From: a virus
Direction: 5' to 3' (one strand)
Virus record (IMG/VR): IMGVR_UViG_3300027971_000246
Coordinates: 1-21,799 of that record
Length of the DNA: 21,799 nucleotides
Shown here: one piece after another, positions 2 to 8,121 of the stretch
Numbering within the stretch: the first letter of the stretch is position 1
How the letters are laid out: each line of letters opens with the position of its first letter
Position numbers and translations under genes: made by a program
Notes under the pieces: generated by a model
What the model was told of the DNA's origin: nothing
Seen by the model: only the letters and a program-made list of their open reading frames with translations
Databases searched by the model: none

Positions 2-1291
2 AGCAATGCTGACCAAGTATTCTCGACAGCGGTATCATGGTCTCTGTGCTACAACAGCACCTTTATTAAACTGGTTTATCGAAACGGTATTCATCCGTAT
101 CTCGTGGAACCGGCCAGCATCGGTGTCTTACGAGAGGACACTCCATACACTGACAGACAAGAAGCAATAATTCAGACTTACTACATCACGAAGTCTGAAC
201 TCTTCAATCGCCTCTACAGCCACCCTCAGAGGGAAAAGATCGTAGAGCGCGTGTCGTATATGCAACACGAGCGCACCGAAGTTGCCAACGGTGTGCAGCG
301 CATCATCATGAGCCAGACGGACCCAACCCTTTACGGGAACGTCAACCTCGATCTCTCTGGCGGCAACCGCTACAAAGCACAAGTCTCCGAAGAAACCGTC
401 GAGATGACGGAACTCTGGGTGTGGAACGATGAGACCGGCGACTACCAAGTGGTCACCCGCGCAGATCCAGATGTAATCATCTACGACCGTCCTGGCGCGA
501 CCGTCTTCTTGAAAGGCGAGCTGCCCTTCATCCAGATCTGCCCCCTGCCGCTCTACGATTACTACTGGGGCCAGTCAGAAGTATCCCGTCTAATCTATCT
601 CCAGCAGATGCGTAACAAGCGCATGACGGAGATCTTGGACATTCTGTCTAAGCAAGTCAGCCCACCTACGGCACTCATCGGGTTCACTGGAATCTTGGAT
701 GAGAAGAACTTTGCTCTCAACCGTGCAGGCGGAATCTTGGCGACAGATATGCCAAGCGCCAAGGTGGAGAAGTTGGCCCCGCAAATGCCGCCAGATCTCT
801 TCCGTGAAATCGGCGAAATTGACTTAATGTTCGAAGAAGCCTCTGGAATCGTCTCAGTCTTGCAAGGACGAGGCGAGTCTGGGGTCAGATCGTCCGGTCA
901 TGCCAGTCAACTTGCCCGTTTAGGGTCATCTCGTGCCAAAAAACGGGCGCTTGTCATCGAAGATTCGCTAGAAAAGATGGCGACTCTGTATCTCAAGCTC
1001 ATGCAAGCGTATCCAAACACGCATTACACGGATACAAGGGGCAATAGGTTCATTGCCGAGCAATTGCCCAAGAATTACGCCGTAAAAGTGGATGCACATA
1101 GCAATTCACCAATCTTCATGGAAGATTTGCGCCAATTGGCGTTCAATCTGTTCAAAGCACAAGTCATTGACAAGGAATCCTTGCTAGACTTGCTTGAACC
1201 ACCCATGAAACAACAATTGAAAGACCGTCTCAAGAAAATGGAAGCCGCACAAGCCCAGCAAGCGGCTATGCAATCTCCAAAGGAGCAATAA
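2..1291 (+). CDS. Portal protein (5' end cut by window edge)
   Basis: The frame is open from base 2, so the gene begins upstream; about 429 residues are visible, and the GTG at 104 is an internal valine, not the start. The portal is the dodecameric ring at one capsid vertex through which DNA is packaged and released. Supporting features: a long mixed alpha/beta body, a segment LPFIQICPLPLYDYYWGQSE followed by a helical stretch with many Arg/Lys/Met (RNKRMTEILDILSKQ), as in portal stem regions, and a charged, Gln/Ala-rich C-terminal helix (KDRLKKMEAAQAQQAA). Position before scaffold and coat genes is the usual order. The stop TAA overlaps the ATG of the next gene (TAATG), and its last codons carry that gene's AAGGAG. 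Family assignment rests on recognition of sequence style plus synteny. Confidence 0.85.
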   Translation, partial: SNADQVFSTAVSWSLCYNSTFIKLVYRNGIHPYLVEPASIGVLREDTPYTDRQEAIIQTYYITKSELFNRLYSHPQREKIVERVSYMQHERTEVANGVQRIIMSQTDPTLYGNVNLDLSGGNRYKAQVSEETVEMTELWVWNDETGDYQVVTRADPDVIIYDRPGATVFLKGELPFIQICPLPLYDYYWGQSEVSRLIYLQQMRNKRMTEILDILSKQVSPPTALIGFTGILDEKNFALNRAGGILATDMPSAKVEKLAPQMPPDLFREIGEIDLMFEEASGIVSVLQGRGESGVRSSGHASQLARLGSSRAKKRALVIEDSLEKMATLYLKLMQAYPNTHYTDTRGNRFIAEQLPKNYAVKVDAHSNSPIFMEDLRQLAFNLFKAQVIDKESLLDLLEPPMKQQLKDRLKKMEAAQAQQAAMQSPKEQ

Positions 1292-1455
1292 TGGTTACTC
1301 AAGGCTACACAAAGACCGGGGATCAACCCCGCGTCACTGCAAAAAGTCTAGATGCAAGACAGGCAACTCCATCCTTGACGTACCGTACACAGACGAATAG
1401 GATGGGAAGTGCGGGCAATTCTTCCCGCATGACCCGTGACTACACACGAAGGTAA
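1291..1455 (+). CDS. Small hypothetical protein, 54 aa, basic C-terminus
   Basis: A 54-codon frame starts at the ATG overlapping the portal stop (TAATG) and has a strong AAGGAG site about six bases upstream, so translation is probably coupled to the portal. The product is polar and basic, begins MVTQGYTKTGDQPR and ends RMTRDYTRR. No membrane segment, signal peptide or known motif is visible. Its Arg-rich ending resembles the two tiny basic peptides that follow it. I do not recognise the family; a small virion or DNA-contacting protein is possible from position and charge only. Confidence 0.7.
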   Translation: MVTQGYTKTGDQPRVTAKSLDARQATPSLTYRTQTNRMGSAGNSSRMTRDYTRR

Positions 1456-1460
1456 TTGCA

Positions 1461-1502
1461 ATGTACAACGCAATGAAACGCGGTCGCAAGACTCGCCGGT
1501 AA
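1461..1502 (+). CDS. Tiny basic peptide, 13 aa (RGRK motif, copy 1)
   Basis: The frame encodes MYNAMKRGRKTRR. It is preceded by GAAGG with about eight bases before the ATG, five bases after the preceding stop. Its C-terminal eight residues align with those of the 10-aa frame at 1570: basic, R, G, R, K, x, R, basic, then stop. The conserved residues use mostly different synonymous codons, which suggests selection on the peptide rather than chance. Function is unknown; a nucleic-acid-binding or leader-type peptide is conceivable. Length alone makes this uncertain. Confidence 0.45.
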   Translation: MYNAMKRGRKTRR

Positions 1503-1569
1503 TTCTTTAAGAGTTTGATGGGTATGGCTGCTTGCCCTTCTCAAGTGGCCCCGCAACCAGGAGATCGTC

Positions 1570-1602
1570 ATGGCACGTCGTGGTCGTAAAGGTCGGAAGT
1601 AA
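1570..1602 (+). CDS. Tiny basic peptide, 10 aa (RGRK motif, copy 2)
   Basis: The frame encodes MARRGRKGRK and has a good AGGAG site six bases before the ATG. Apart from Met, Ala and two Gly, every residue is Arg or Lys. It shares the pattern R-G-R-K-x-R with the peptide at 1461, with third-base changes (CGC/CGT, AAG/AAA, CGC/CGG) at conserved residues. It may be a duplicated tiny gene. The role is unknown; see the finding on the mini-ORF array. Confidence 0.45.
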   Translation: MARRGRKGRK

Positions 1603-1634
1603 TCCGAACGTAACAGGTTTCTGAACCGGCCTGC

Positions 1635-1657
1635 GGGAGGTGGGCGATGAGCCTCCC
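1635..1657 (+). promoter_or_regulatory. Hairpin enclosing a ribosome binding site and start codon
   Basis: GGGAGG (1635-1640) is complementary to CCTCCC (1652-1657), leaving an 11-base loop that contains the ATG at 1647. An alternative pairing GTGGG (1640-1644) with CCCAC (1655-1659) is mutually exclusive with it. Either would influence access to the GGGAGG site. There is no following U-run, so it does not look like a terminator. Regulatory meaning is inferred. Confidence 0.35.
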
Positions 1658-1685
1658 ACTTGACTTGATTTCTAATTGGGTATAA
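1647..1685 (+). CDS. Possible 12-aa leader-like peptide with sequestered ribosome site
   Basis: The frame encodes MSLPLDLISNWV and has GGGAGG seven bases before the ATG, a near-ideal ribosome site. The same GGGAGG can pair with CCTCCC inside the frame. The stop lies ten bases before the start of the next real gene at 1696, so it could act as a translated leader for that gene. The peptide is not basic, unlike its neighbours. It may equally be a chance frame. Confidence 0.25.
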   Translation: MSLPLDLISNWV

Positions 1686-1695
1686 AAGGTCGCAC

Positions 1696-2909: not shown

Positions 2910-3920
2910 ATGGCCATTGGTGGCGGAATTCTACCGGCAACGGGATCAACTCAGTACACTGAGTTAACTTACGTCACTCGTAGGGCATTCATCCCGAAGC
3001 TGGTTGTACAGCTCTATAACTCGACCCCTCTTCTCGCAGCACTGATTGCTAACAGTCAGCAAGCCAGCGGCGGTGTGTCTTCCGTAACAGTGCCTGTCCA
3101 AGGCGCTCAGTTTGTAAACGCACAATGGTCAGACTACAGCGGCTCGTTCGCTCAACCGTCTGTCCAGCAGGGTGCTTACAACGCTGAGTTCAACCTCAAG
3201 CTGATGATCACGCCAGTCCCATTCCTCGGGATGGAAGGCGCGGTTCAGCAGGACGCAGCAATTATCCCGCTGATCGAAGCTCGGATGAACGATGCGACCA
3301 ACGTGATGATGGACGCGATGGCAACGTCGCTCTACCAGAACTACACGAACACCCAGCAGTTTATCGGCCTCCCAGGCGCGATTGACGATGGTACGAACCT
3401 AGTGACCTACGGGAACATCAACCGTAACACCTACACTTGGTGGAAGTCGAAGGTCTACAACGCTGGTAACGTCAACCCAACCCGTCAGAACATCCTGCAA
3501 TACATTTCTGGAACCGTGAAGAACGGTGCAGAAGTGCCATCGTTTGGTGTTTGCGGATTCGGTACTTGGACTCTGTTGGCTCAAGACTTTGTTGGTCAAG
3601 AGCAGTATGTCATCACCCCAGGTTCTGGGTTTGATGGCGACAACAACGGACCACAGGCTGCGTTCCGCGCATTGATGGTTGCTGGTGTGCCGATCTATCC
3701 AGATCCGTATTGCCCAGAAGGCGTTGTCTACTTTGTCAACACGAACTACCTGAACCTCTACATCCACGAGCAGGGTTCGTTTGTGTTTACTGGGTTTGAG
3801 TCCACTTTGCCTAACTGGCAGATTGGTTACGTCGGCGCAGTGCTGATGATTGCTGAGTTGATTAGTACTAAACCAAAGTCTATGACTAGGGTTAGTTCTT
3901 ATAACTCTCTGACTCTGTAA
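2910..3920 (+). CDS. Major capsid protein
   Basis: The 336-residue product is the expected size for an HK97-fold coat subunit and follows the scaffold candidate, with GGAG upstream of the ATG. It is an Ala/Gly/Asn/Gln-rich soluble alpha/beta protein without signal peptide. Visible features include an N-terminal arm (residues 1-45), a segment PVPFLGMEGAVQQDAAIIPL followed by a long helix EARMNDATNVMMDAMATSLY matching a spine helix, and a beta-rich C-terminal half ending with KPKSMTRVSSYN. The gene is one of the most GC-regular, codon-biased genes of the window, as expected for a highly expressed protein. It forms the icosahedral shell. Confidence 0.85.
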   Translation: MAIGGGILPATGSTQYTELTYVTRRAFIPKLVVQLYNSTPLLAALIANSQQASGGVSSVTVPVQGAQFVNAQWSDYSGSFAQPSVQQGAYNAEFNLKLMITPVPFLGMEGAVQQDAAIIPLIEARMNDATNVMMDAMATSLYQNYTNTQQFIGLPGAIDDGTNLVTYGNINRNTYTWWKSKVYNAGNVNPTRQNILQYISGTVKNGAEVPSFGVCGFGTWTLLAQDFVGQEQYVITPGSGFDGDNNGPQAAFRALMVAGVPIYPDPYCPEGVVYFVNTNYLNLYIHEQGSFVFTGFESTLPNWQIGYVGAVLMIAELISTKPKSMTRVSSYNSLTL

Positions 3921-5060: not shown

Positions 5061-5906
5061 ATGGCAACCCTAAATTCGTACATCACAGACGTTCGCAGGC
5101 TCTTACATGATGCCAATGCGAACTTTTGGTCTAACGATGAGATTACGGATTACGTCAACAATGGGCGTGAAAGGGTAGTACGGGACACAGGTTGCCTGCG
5201 TACTCTGCAAATATCCGCTACACCACTCGCTCCAGACGGCACAGCCGCAATTATCTGGTCTGCTGGACTTGTTGTTACCGCAGGACAGTACATATTCTCA
5301 AATATCTTTATCTACCAAGTCACGGTAGGTGGGACGCTGGGAACTACATCTCCTCCGTACCCAACATCTGGGACTAATTTCCCTCCGTCAACTGCTTTTA
5401 CTAACGGCACAGCAACCTTGCTGTACGTTCAGAATGCAGAAATTATCCCGTTTTCGTCGCTACCTAATGGTTCGCAGACTCTGGATGTACTCAATCTGAC
5501 AATCTATTGGGGTAATTCTAGGATTCCCCTGCGTTACCTGCCCTGGACGAACTTCAACGCCCAGTTGCGTTACTGGCAGAACTACGTTGGACGGCCTGTG
5601 TGCTTCTCAACGTATGGTCAATCGCAAATTTACATCTCACCTATCCCTGACCAGTCCTATAGCATGGAAGTGGATACGGTCATCCTGCCTTCTCCGCTGG
5701 TTTTGACCAATCCTACGGTCAATGACGCCATCAACGACCCGTACACGGTTCCTGTGGCGTTCTACGCGGCCTACAAGGCCAAGTACAAGGAACAGAGCTA
5801 CGGGGAATCTGAGATTTTCCTTCAGCAGTACAACCGTCAAGTACAGAGCGTGTTGAATTCAGTCTTCACGCGTAGAATTCCGGACCCGTATAGCAGTCCT
5901 TACTAA
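5061..5906 (+). CDS. Putative head-tail adaptor protein with inserted beta module
   Basis: The 281-residue product begins MATLNSYITDVRRLLHDANA, then FWSNDEITDYVNNGRERVVRDT, an N-terminal helical pair typical of SU10-like adaptor proteins that attach under the portal ring. Residues about 62-124 look like an inserted small beta module (YQVTVGGTLGTTSPPYPTSG ... NGTATLLYV), a pattern better known from phage fibre proteins. The rest returns to adaptor-like sequence with a Tyr/Gln-rich helical C-terminus (VAFYAAYKAKYKEQSYGESE). It is followed by the nozzle-like gene with one base between. Adaptor role is inferred from N-terminus and synteny. Confidence 0.65.
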   Translation: MATLNSYITDVRRLLHDANANFWSNDEITDYVNNGRERVVRDTGCLRTLQISATPLAPDGTAAIIWSAGLVVTAGQYIFSNIFIYQVTVGGTLGTTSPPYPTSGTNFPPSTAFTNGTATLLYVQNAEIIPFSSLPNGSQTLDVLNLTIYWGNSRIPLRYLPWTNFNAQLRYWQNYVGRPVCFSTYGQSQIYISPIPDQSYSMEVDTVILPSPLVLTNPTVNDAINDPYTVPVAFYAAYKAKYKEQSYGESEIFLQQYNRQVQSVLNSVFTRRIPDPYSSPY

Positions 5907-5907
5907 C

Positions 5908-8121
5908 ATGGCATCCCAAGAACAGCAAAAAAGATACACTGTTCTGAAGACGTTCGGGGGAATCAACACCAAAGCCAACCGAACAGCCATCAAGGACAGT
6001 GAATTCTCGTGGTTGGAAAACGCCATGCCGATTGGCGACTCCAACATCAAGATTGTTCCTGCCCAAGAAGCTGTTAGAGACAGCACAGGCAATGTTGTTG
6101 TCTTTTCAAACACCACTTCTTACCTAACGTCTACAAATATCAATGTATCTGACTACATAGTCAGCTTTGAGATAGACGGTAGAGCGCAAGCGTTCAATCT
6201 CACCAGCAATGTGACCAGTAATGTGGCCGTTGCAGGCACATTTAGCAATGCCAACGTCAGTTCTGCCCAGTGGAAGAACGAAAGACTGATCATTGCCGAC
6301 ACAGACAAAGGTTTGTCGAGCTGGAACGGCGCTAACGTAGTCTCTATAGGCTCTGTTGGCCTGATAGCCGTATCAAACCCAGGCTCTGGCTACACTTCTG
6401 CGCCAAACGTGGTGATCAGCGCACCCAATGATGCTAACGGGGTGCAGGCAGTAGCGACTGCAACAATCGTCACCGGATCTGGTGGTATCAGATCTGTCTA
6501 TGTGACCTCGGGTGGGTCAGGATACACGGCTGTGCCAGATGTAACCATCGGCGCACCCAACATTACAGGTGGAACCCAGGCTACGGCAGTTGCAAGCATC
6601 AGCGGTGGGGCTGTAGTTTCAATTGGAGTTGTTGAAGCAGGGTCTGGATACACTTCTATCCCTACTGTTACCTTCTCTAGCGGTGCAGCCACAGCAAATG
6701 CAGTCATTTCTACTGGTGGTGTTAGCACCGTATCCCTGACTAACGCTGGTAGTGGGTATACGTCATCCCCAACCATCACGTTCTCAGGTGGTGGAGGGTC
6801 TGGTGCTAATGCTATAGCCCAGATTGTCACGTTCAGAACTGGCACAGTCAGCATCTTGCTCAACAACGGTGGTTCTGGCTATACGTCAGCGCCAACGGTA
6901 GCTATCGGCGGTGCTAACACTACTCCTGCTACCGCTACAGCCATTGTTCTAGGCAATACAGTCTCGCAGATTGTGATGACCAACCCTGGCGCTGGGTACA
7001 CAACTGCAAACGTAACGCTTTCCGGTGGTGGGTTCACGACCGCTGCCAACGTCACGGCGGTTGTAAACACAGATCAGGTGGTTTCCGTAGCCACATTTTC
7101 TGGCAGAACCTGGGTGGCCGCTGGGCGCACCGTTTACTACTCTGCCGCAGATTCCTACAGTGACTTCACCAGCGTCTCTGCCGGATCTCTCACGATCTCA
7201 GACTCAACTCTGCACGGCAACATCCGTGCGCTTCTCTCAGCCAATAATTTTTTGTACATCTTTGGTGAGACAAGCATCAACGTCTTCTCTGACGTTCGCG
7301 TTGACACCAACGGTCAAACTTTATTTACCAACACCAACGTATCTGCAAGCGTAGGGACCAAGCGTATCTACGCCATCTACCCGTTTTTCCGCTCTGTGCT
7401 GTTTATGAACGACTACGGGATCTATTCCCTAGTTGGTTCTACCACTAGCAAGTTGTCAGACGCTTTAGACGGGGTGTTCCAACTCATAGACTTTGCTTCT
7501 CCTATCAGCGGAGGACAAGTTTTACTGAACAACATACTATGCGCGGCATTCTCCTTCACTTACAACGACCCGGCAAGTGGAGCGAGAAAGGTCCAAGCCG
7601 TGTTTTTCGAGAAGAAGTGGTTTCTAACCTCCCAAGGAGCGTTGGATTACATCACTTCCGTCCCTACAGCGGGGGTCATTCGCCTCTATGGGACCGCAGG
7701 CTCAAGCCTCTACCGTCTCTATGCTAATTCCACGGCTGGAATAGCAACCACAATCCAAACCGCTCTCATGCCTATGGGTGATCCCATACGAACCAAGCAG
7801 GCATTGAAGTTTGGGATAGAGGCACAGTTGCAAGCAGCATCTACGCTCCTCATTAGCGTGGACAACGAACAAGGAACTGGATCTACTGGTGCTTACACCA
7901 TAGACAATTCCGTCGTTTGGCTCAACAATTATCAAGTCCCGGTCACTTGGCAAAACAATAGTTTGCAGACTGTTGGCTGGGAAACGTCTTACGGATATGC
8001 TCTGTACAAGTCAGATGCCCAGCAATACGGCAAGTATCTCGGCCTGACCATCAACAGTAACAGTGCCGGATATACAGTAAATACTTTCGAGTTTGAACAC
8101 GAATTGAGGGTGAGGTTCTAA
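5908..8121 (+). CDS. Putative tail nozzle/tube protein with six-fold repeat insert
   Basis: The 737-residue product follows the adaptor and has the size and character of short-tail nozzle or tubular proteins. The N-terminus (residues 1-60) carries FGGINTKANRTAIKDSEFSW, resembling openings of nozzle/stopper-type proteins. The segment at residues 110-145 and the region 390-600 read like beta-propeller blades (GRTWVAAGRTVYYSAADSYS; RSVLFMNDYGIYSLVGS). Between them, residues about 151-390 hold six repeats of 36-44 residues, each centred on G-[SA]-G-Y-T. The C-terminus is a beta domain ending FEFEHELRVRF. It probably forms the stub tail through which DNA leaves; the repeat insert may project outward. 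Its stop overlaps the fibre start (TAATG). Confidence 0.65.
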   Translation: MASQEQQKRYTVLKTFGGINTKANRTAIKDSEFSWLENAMPIGDSNIKIVPAQEAVRDSTGNVVVFSNTTSYLTSTNINVSDYIVSFEIDGRAQAFNLTSNVTSNVAVAGTFSNANVSSAQWKNERLIIADTDKGLSSWNGANVVSIGSVGLIAVSNPGSGYTSAPNVVISAPNDANGVQAVATATIVTGSGGIRSVYVTSGGSGYTAVPDVTIGAPNITGGTQATAVASISGGAVVSIGVVEAGSGYTSIPTVTFSSGAATANAVISTGGVSTVSLTNAGSGYTSSPTITFSGGGGSGANAIAQIVTFRTGTVSILLNNGGSGYTSAPTVAIGGANTTPATATAIVLGNTVSQIVMTNPGAGYTTANVTLSGGGFTTAANVTAVVNTDQVVSVATFSGRTWVAAGRTVYYSAADSYSDFTSVSAGSLTISDSTLHGNIRALLSANNFLYIFGETSINVFSDVRVDTNGQTLFTNTNVSASVGTKRIYAIYPFFRSVLFMNDYGIYSLVGSTTSKLSDALDGVFQLIDFASPISGGQVLLNNILCAAFSFTYNDPASGARKVQAVFFEKKWFLTSQGALDYITSVPTAGVIRLYGTAGSSLYRLYANSTAGIATTIQTALMPMGDPIRTKQALKFGIEAQLQAASTLLISVDNEQGTGSTGAYTIDNSVVWLNNYQVPVTWQNNSLQTVGWETSYGYALYKSDAQQYGKYLGLTINSNSAGYTVNTFEFEHELRVRF
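6358..7077 (+). repeat. Six protein-level repeats (GSGYT units) within the nozzle gene
   Basis: GSGYTSAP-like cores occur at residues 159, 203, 245, 281, 322 and 361 of the nozzle protein, spaced 44, 42, 36, 41 and 39 residues. Each unit runs roughly hydrophobic strand, N-x-G-S-G-Y-T-x-x-P, T-V-x-F/I-x-G, Ala/Thr-rich strand. The DNA copies differ at many synonymous positions, so the duplication is old and maintained by selection on the protein. The last unit is the most divergent (GAGYTTAN). Confidence 0.85.

Follow-up and report, generated by a model that had tools for sequence, protein, structure and literature searches.

Between its portal gene and its capsid operon, IMG/VR virus record IMGVR_UViG_3300027971_000246 carries a series of very short open reading frames, and the question raised by this locus is whether frames of 10–13 codons can be genes and, if so, what their products would do. 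The window analyzed here (positions 1 to 21,799 of that record) is a fragment from an uncultured double-stranded DNA (dsDNA) phage. We refer to the two frames of interest as mini1 and mini2, and to the RNA pseudoknot between them as PKa. That mini1 and mini2 are genuine micro-genes under strong purifying selection is well supported by the comparative evidence from related phages. As to their role, we lean toward the view that the two genes, set in a head-assembly operon, encode free-standing peptides that bind nucleic acid, and that mini2 is probably controlled through PKa.

Two Short Basic Frames as Genes

A first-pass annotation of this sequence had listed frames of 54 amino acids (1291–1455), 13 amino acids (1461–1502, mini1), 10 amino acids (1570–1602, mini2), and 12 amino acids (1647–1685), and these positions and sizes were recovered. 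As it described, the first two short frames end in [KR]-R-G-R-K-x-R-[RK]-stop (KRGRKTRR in mini1 and RRGRKGRK in mini2), coded by differing codons. Within one genome such synonymous difference is a weak argument for selection; the case from comparing genomes with each other leads to the same conclusion.

The comparison set comprises 242 distinct intervals reaching from the portal gene to p151, the gene that opens the following operon, drawn from many independent assemblies and consisting throughout of metagenomic or uncultured phage records. An IMG/VR scan that used the portal as query yielded 80 near relatives, two further portal scans added more distant ones, and scans with both peptides as degenerate DNA gave at least 120 stretches each; among the matches listed, all contigs bearing the pair also carry the portal or its neighbors. 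The phage group is uncultured, mostly freshwater, and widespread; bins of metagenome-assembled genomes hint no more than loosely at Proteobacteria as hosts. Only two deposited genomes match the portal, both from uncultured phages (MW202825.1, here L082, and MW202753.1, here L083). The annotation of these two records places minus-strand frames across the mini interval (UOF82412.1, UOF81572.1, and UOF81573.1), which are probably spurious.

Ratios of nonsynonymous to synonymous change (dN/dS), computed from disjoint nearest-neighbor pairs of distinct sequences after removal of off-target frames, are 0.138 [0.105–0.175] for mini1 (138 distinct sequences) and 0.244 [0.146–0.396] for mini2 (81 distinct sequences), figures that are coarse on frames this short. 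Changes at codon positions 1, 2, and 3 number 51, 33, and 173 in mini1 (binomial p = 1.6e-44) and 23, 23, and 64 in mini2 (p = 1.5e-11). In a codon alignment of 116 mini1 copies, which included a few off-target frames, the invariant residues R9, K10, and R13 use five, two, and six codons, respectively, with arginine spanning both CGN and AGR. The terminal arginine codon of mini1 (1497–1499) is CGG in 58 of the 116 copies, a codon that is rare at the other arginine positions. A Shine-Dalgarno (SD) sequence is present before 99% of distinct mini1 copies and 89% of mini2 copies, compared with 18–20% of random positions in the same intervals. The first-pass proposal of selection acting on two tiny peptides that gene callers overlook is thus strongly supported: hundreds of relatives show codon conservation, ribosome sites, and a gene-scale pattern of gain and loss. 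Both frames are presumably translated.

Composition sets the frames apart as well. On both strands of the window, mini2 is the sole ATG frame of 8–20 amino acids that is preceded by an SD sequence and has at least 50% Lys/Arg; dinucleotide shuffles give a chance expectation for this strict class of 0.02 per window and 0.0006 per 400-base interval. With 6 Lys/Arg among 13 residues (46%), mini1 falls slightly below the cutoff, so its support rests on the relatives. In ten relatives of nearly genome length (34–40 kb), the SD-preceded, highly basic short frames are the minis, two chance-like frames of 21 residues, and one basic protein of 48 residues. A strongly basic, SD-preceded 48-amino acid frame (MSVKKGLYYNINKRRK...) was noted in contig L441 at 2746, away from the mini locus. 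Across relatives the mini peptides have about 9–17 residues, around half of them Lys/Arg; hydrophobic residues are few and acidic ones almost absent. The divergent copies MYKKVTKKVTRTTRRR, MARGRKAHKKMRKSKR, and MAYKSVKRSRRGKRK are altered in sequence and length and keep their basic character, suggesting that charge-based binding fits better than one exact motif. A programmed frameshift or a C-terminal extension of p54 (the 54-amino acid frame) or of mini1 was considered and rejected, as the inter-frame distances fall into each of the three phases and a separate ribosome site precedes every frame; no mini fused to a larger protein was noticed.

RNA Elements and a Promoter-like Site around mini2

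The order 3' of the portal stop is p54, mini1, PKa, mini2, a second pseudoknot (PKb), a promoter-like site, p151, and the capsid genes. The features of the region, with the evidence for each, are as follows.

2–1291, + strand: SU10-type portal protein, C-terminal part, the gene being cut by the window start (PF23899; PHROG portal families)
1291–1455, + strand: p54, a conserved small gene of 54 amino acids overlapping the portal stop (TAATG), with the motif ADQPRV; an ordinary neighbor, present across relatives
1448–1452, + strand: mini1 ribosome-binding site, GAAGG (SD conservation across distinct copies)
1461–1502, + strand: mini1, 13-amino acid basic peptide MYNAMKRGRKTRR (dN/dS, invariant residues, SD)
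1520–1550, + strand: PKa, H-type RNA pseudoknot (covariation, linkage to mini2; no Rfam match)
1559–1563, + strand: mini2 ribosome-binding site, AGGAG (SD conservation across distinct copies)
1570–1602, + strand: mini2, 10-amino acid basic peptide MARRGRKGRK (dN/dS, SD)
1629–1657, + strand: PKb, second H-type pseudoknot (covarying stems; native fold versus shuffles)
1647–1685, + strand: third short frame, 12 amino acids, MSLPLDLISNWV, judged spurious (inside the PKb loop and the promoter; ATG not kept)
1660–1686, + strand: capsid-operon promoter-like site, TTGACT at 1660–1665 and TATAAA at 1681–1686 (conservation in relatives)
1696–2151, + strand: p151, opening the following operon, with p60, p176, and the major head protein next (order conserved in relatives; head protein PHROG 9953)

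PKa pairs GGG (1520–1522) with CCC (1535–1537) in stem 1 and GGCTGCTT (1526–1533) with AAGTGGCC (1543–1550) in stem 2. Both stems covary in relatives: stem 1 occurs as AGGG/CCCT, GAGG/CCTC, AGAG/CTCT, and CGGG/CCCG, and stem 2 as GGCTGCTT/AAGTGGCC, GGCTGACT/AGTTGGCC, GGCTGGTT/AACTGGCC, and GGTTTCTC/GAGAAACC. Complete stem 2 pairing is seen in 58% of native combinations versus 2% of strand-swapped ones; one large PKa type (GGCTTCCT) retains an internal mismatch in this stem. For PKa and PKb alike, covariation was computed with our own scripts as a strand comparison rather than as a formal phylogenetic test. Matches to PKa were collected from IMG/VR by a sequence-only scan blind to the peptide and pooled with loci already in the set, and 102 of 103 usable distinct matches have mini2 17–29 nucleotides (nt) downstream, the lone exception looking unrelated. 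The distance from PKa to the mini2 start is 42–59 nt (standard deviation 2.8 nt), whereas that from the mini1 stop to PKa has a standard deviation of 13.8 nt. PKa is absent from the inspected phages that have only mini1 or neither mini and present in most inspected phages that have only mini2. The near-fixed spacing, the linkage to mini2, and the absence from mini1-only phages indicate that PKa belongs to the translation start of mini2.

Neither PKa nor PKb is in Rfam. At gathering score, Rfam returned nothing in the window and a single unrelated transfer RNA (tRNA) in 14 diverse relatives, and permissive scans gave weak matches only. ARAGORN finds no tRNA or transfer-messenger RNA in the window, and a glutamine riboswitch or downstream-peptide RNA, suspected since a short frame follows a pseudoknot here, gave no match. 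Single-sequence folding of the window was uninformative, as the method cannot form pseudoknots.

The stems of PKb, GCCT (1629–1632) with GGGC (1642–1645) and GGGAGGT (1635–1641) with GCCTCCC (1651–1657), also covary in relatives, and in 33 of 41 regions the native fold surpasses every one of 30 shuffles. PKb and its counterparts have a short, often A-rich loop and lie directly 5' of the −35 box of the capsid operon. The hexamer TTGAC[AT], with an A/T-rich −10 element, precedes the next gene in 220 of the 242 intervals. Of the three short frames put forward as genes in the first-pass annotation, mini1 and mini2 stand and the one at 1647 does not: its ATG sits in the PKb loop, the frame crosses the −35 box, and close relatives exchange the start (GATGA to GATAA).

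The portal belongs to the SU10 portal family (Pfam PF23899, E = 5.3e-10), and an SU10-type adaptor (PF24175) is also encoded in the window. The p54 protein belongs to a conserved family of 50–60 amino acids (ADQPRV...YR..., with a basic C terminus) that matches neither Pfam nor PHROG and whose counterpart in MW202753 is annotated as UOF81571.1. The p54 stop and the mini1 start are separated by a median of 12 nt across relatives, which suggests an operon-like arrangement. In L360, the stretch from portal to p54 holds an additional small frame (5823–6010) whose MADTYE start is repeated.

Presence and Loss across Relatives

Nearly all near relatives with enough downstream sequence have both minis, about 170 and 280 bases past the portal stop. 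In the full set, which was partly gathered by mini patterns and so overstates mini frequency, 197 of the 242 intervals have two or more minis, 21 have only mini2, 11 have only mini1, and 13 have neither; some of the mini2-only calls may conceal a GTG-initiated mini1 (L347). Gathering by portal alone, with a looser classifier, gave 119 intervals, of which 84 have both minis, 22 one, and 13 none. The first-pass annotation had named the flanking genes kept with the RGRK pattern gone as evidence against the peptides; most relatives do not look like this, and clades that lack one or both minis do exist. Among individual contigs, L327 (1937–2508) has three mini-like basic frames and no PKa. In L321, about 230 bases past the portal stop at 3433, the mini2 ATG is changed to ATA; this interval, near-identical to intact relatives (L325) and counted among the 13 without minis, could represent fresh decay or an ATA start.

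On a portal tree of 71 rows, with presence labels set by hand such that one or two rows may be mislabeled, the mini pair is widespread and each mini has been lost independently several times. The phages without minis form a single clade (support 100/100) adjoining a mini1-only clade, an arrangement that suggests stepwise loss. The pair was probably present ancestrally and lost repeatedly.

A Possible Role in Head Assembly

We propose that mini1 and mini2 are independently translated micro-genes that close the portal operon, each giving a free-standing peptide. With about half of their residues Lys/Arg, almost no acidic residues, and a composition kept despite drift, the peptides would most likely bind nucleic acid electrostatically, and the position in the portal operon adjoining the head genes points to head assembly or DNA packaging. 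They might, for example, neutralize or guide DNA, and may enter the head. PKa would most likely set, or feed back on, mini2 translation in the manner of T4 gp32 and its leader pseudoknot. Nucleic-acid binding, virion presence, and autoregulation are what we infer rather than observe; of the possible activities, binding to DNA inside or near the head falls just short of probable, RNA binding or regulation is a good deal less likely, and some other function ranks slightly above the latter. We consider it rather unlikely that the locus is a self-contained peptide–RNA module, in which a phage protein of 10–13 residues would bind both the pseudoknot at its own start and the genome as an autoregulated, protamine-like packaging peptide.

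Known systems share parts of this picture. The microvirus J protein is very small and highly basic. Its interior homolog in gokushoviruses is VP8 (PMC11945456). Like these, the minis would be stand-alone, very small, highly basic phage products made with head genes; J and VP8 are larger and belong to single-stranded DNA virions, whereas the minis have 9–17 amino acids and accompany a dsDNA-type portal. The RGR core with flanking Lys/Arg of most mini1 copies is shared with AT-hook and AT-hook-like Q/RGR motifs (Lsr2 and H-NS; PMC4466236): mini1 positions 7–9 are RGR in most of the 116 copies, which is compatible with minor-groove insertion. The classical RGRP core is not found, as lysine rather than proline follows Arg9 in all 116 copies; moreover, some copies have Ser, Thr, or Ala in place of Gly8, and the minis are free-standing instead of lying within a folded protein. 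PKa and mini2 resemble T4 gene 32 (PMC535899, PMC3014915) in that an H-type pseudoknot precedes the start of a presumed nucleic-acid binder, the arrangement expected of gene 32-type control. Gp32 is a large folded protein, however, compared with peptides of 10–13 amino acids whose regulation is presumed by analogy. Two catalogs of small proteins have floors of 15 codons (PMC11188072) and 30 nucleotides (PMC11364881); their members, like the minis, are under-annotated small genes under purifying selection, and by these length limits the minis lie below or near the floors.

Several observations weigh against the role that we favor. Both minis are dispensable, as 12 intervals of one clade have neither, and in the two long records of that clade no similar frame was found elsewhere. 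In phages without minis, p60, p176, and the head protein showed no compensating gain of charge, and peptides this small add little charge unless many copies are made. The mini2-like frames of L335 and L327 occur without PKa, which is therefore not obligatory. The nearest-neighbor pairs behind the dN/dS values are only roughly independent, and the portal homologs sampled, at about 66–99% identity to the window portal, do not reach deeper history. Compensation through p151 was considered and rejected, because p151 is more acidic in phages without minis, the opposite direction; its mean net charge goes from −3.5 where both minis occur to about −9 where one does and −11.3 where neither does, a trend that may reflect phylogeny only.

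Arginine-rich motifs of 10–20 residues can bind RNA, and the minis could instead be RNA-binding regulators that specifically recognize PKa or PKb in the style of lambda N and boxB and mainly regulate the operon. The linkage of PKa to mini2 in 102 of 103 matches at near-fixed spacing is what this would predict, but mini1 is conserved in mini1-only phages without PKa, mini2 without PKa exists, and side-chain identities drift among divergent phages; we regard this alternative as unlikely. Translated leaders, also suggested by the first-pass annotation, are disfavored further. Bacterial leader peptides are encoded by frames of 10–20 codons that have a ribosome site and lie close to structured RNA. 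The minis are comparable in size and setting, with pseudoknots flanking mini2 and the capsid operon next, and translation or stalling on them could control RNA folds and capsid genes with no function for the peptides themselves. Yet the distances from the mini2 stop to the −35 box and from the mini1 stop to PKa vary (standard deviation 13.8 nt each), leaving no fixed attenuator register, and in L299-type phages mini1 runs right up to the promoter and is followed by no RNA structure. The capsid operon also has its own promoter-like site, the arginine codons are mostly CGC/CGT with no hint of a sensed rare codon, and sensing of an amino acid does not account for the conserved residues. The peptides of mini1 and mini2 are similar to one another, and the two were lost in separate events. 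A leader role is accordingly quite improbable.

The two covarying pseudoknots inside 150 bases could also mean that an RNA or DNA element, such as a packaging RNA or site, is what is conserved, with the frames as by-products. The codon-position bias, the low dN/dS, the SD sequences before both starts, and peptides that stay intact while inter-element spacing changes leave this very little room. Chance frames or an assembly artifact would account for the silence of gene callers on the minis in metagenomic records, but the 242 distinct intervals, the many independent assemblies, the two deposited phage records, and the expectation of 0.0006 strict-class frames per interval leave next to no probability here, and the comparative data already refute it.

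Through comparative genomics, the locus clearly illustrates that a protein gene with only about 10 codons can be both stable and heritable, kept across hundreds of phage contigs. Clades that have lost one mini or the pair serve as natural knock-outs, and the pseudoknot ahead of mini2 is a compact test bed for peptide–RNA feedback. If the self-contained peptide–RNA module is real, few known families of conserved stand-alone proteins would be as small. The same combination of ribosome site, synonymous change, and kept charge could reveal similar genes in other phages.
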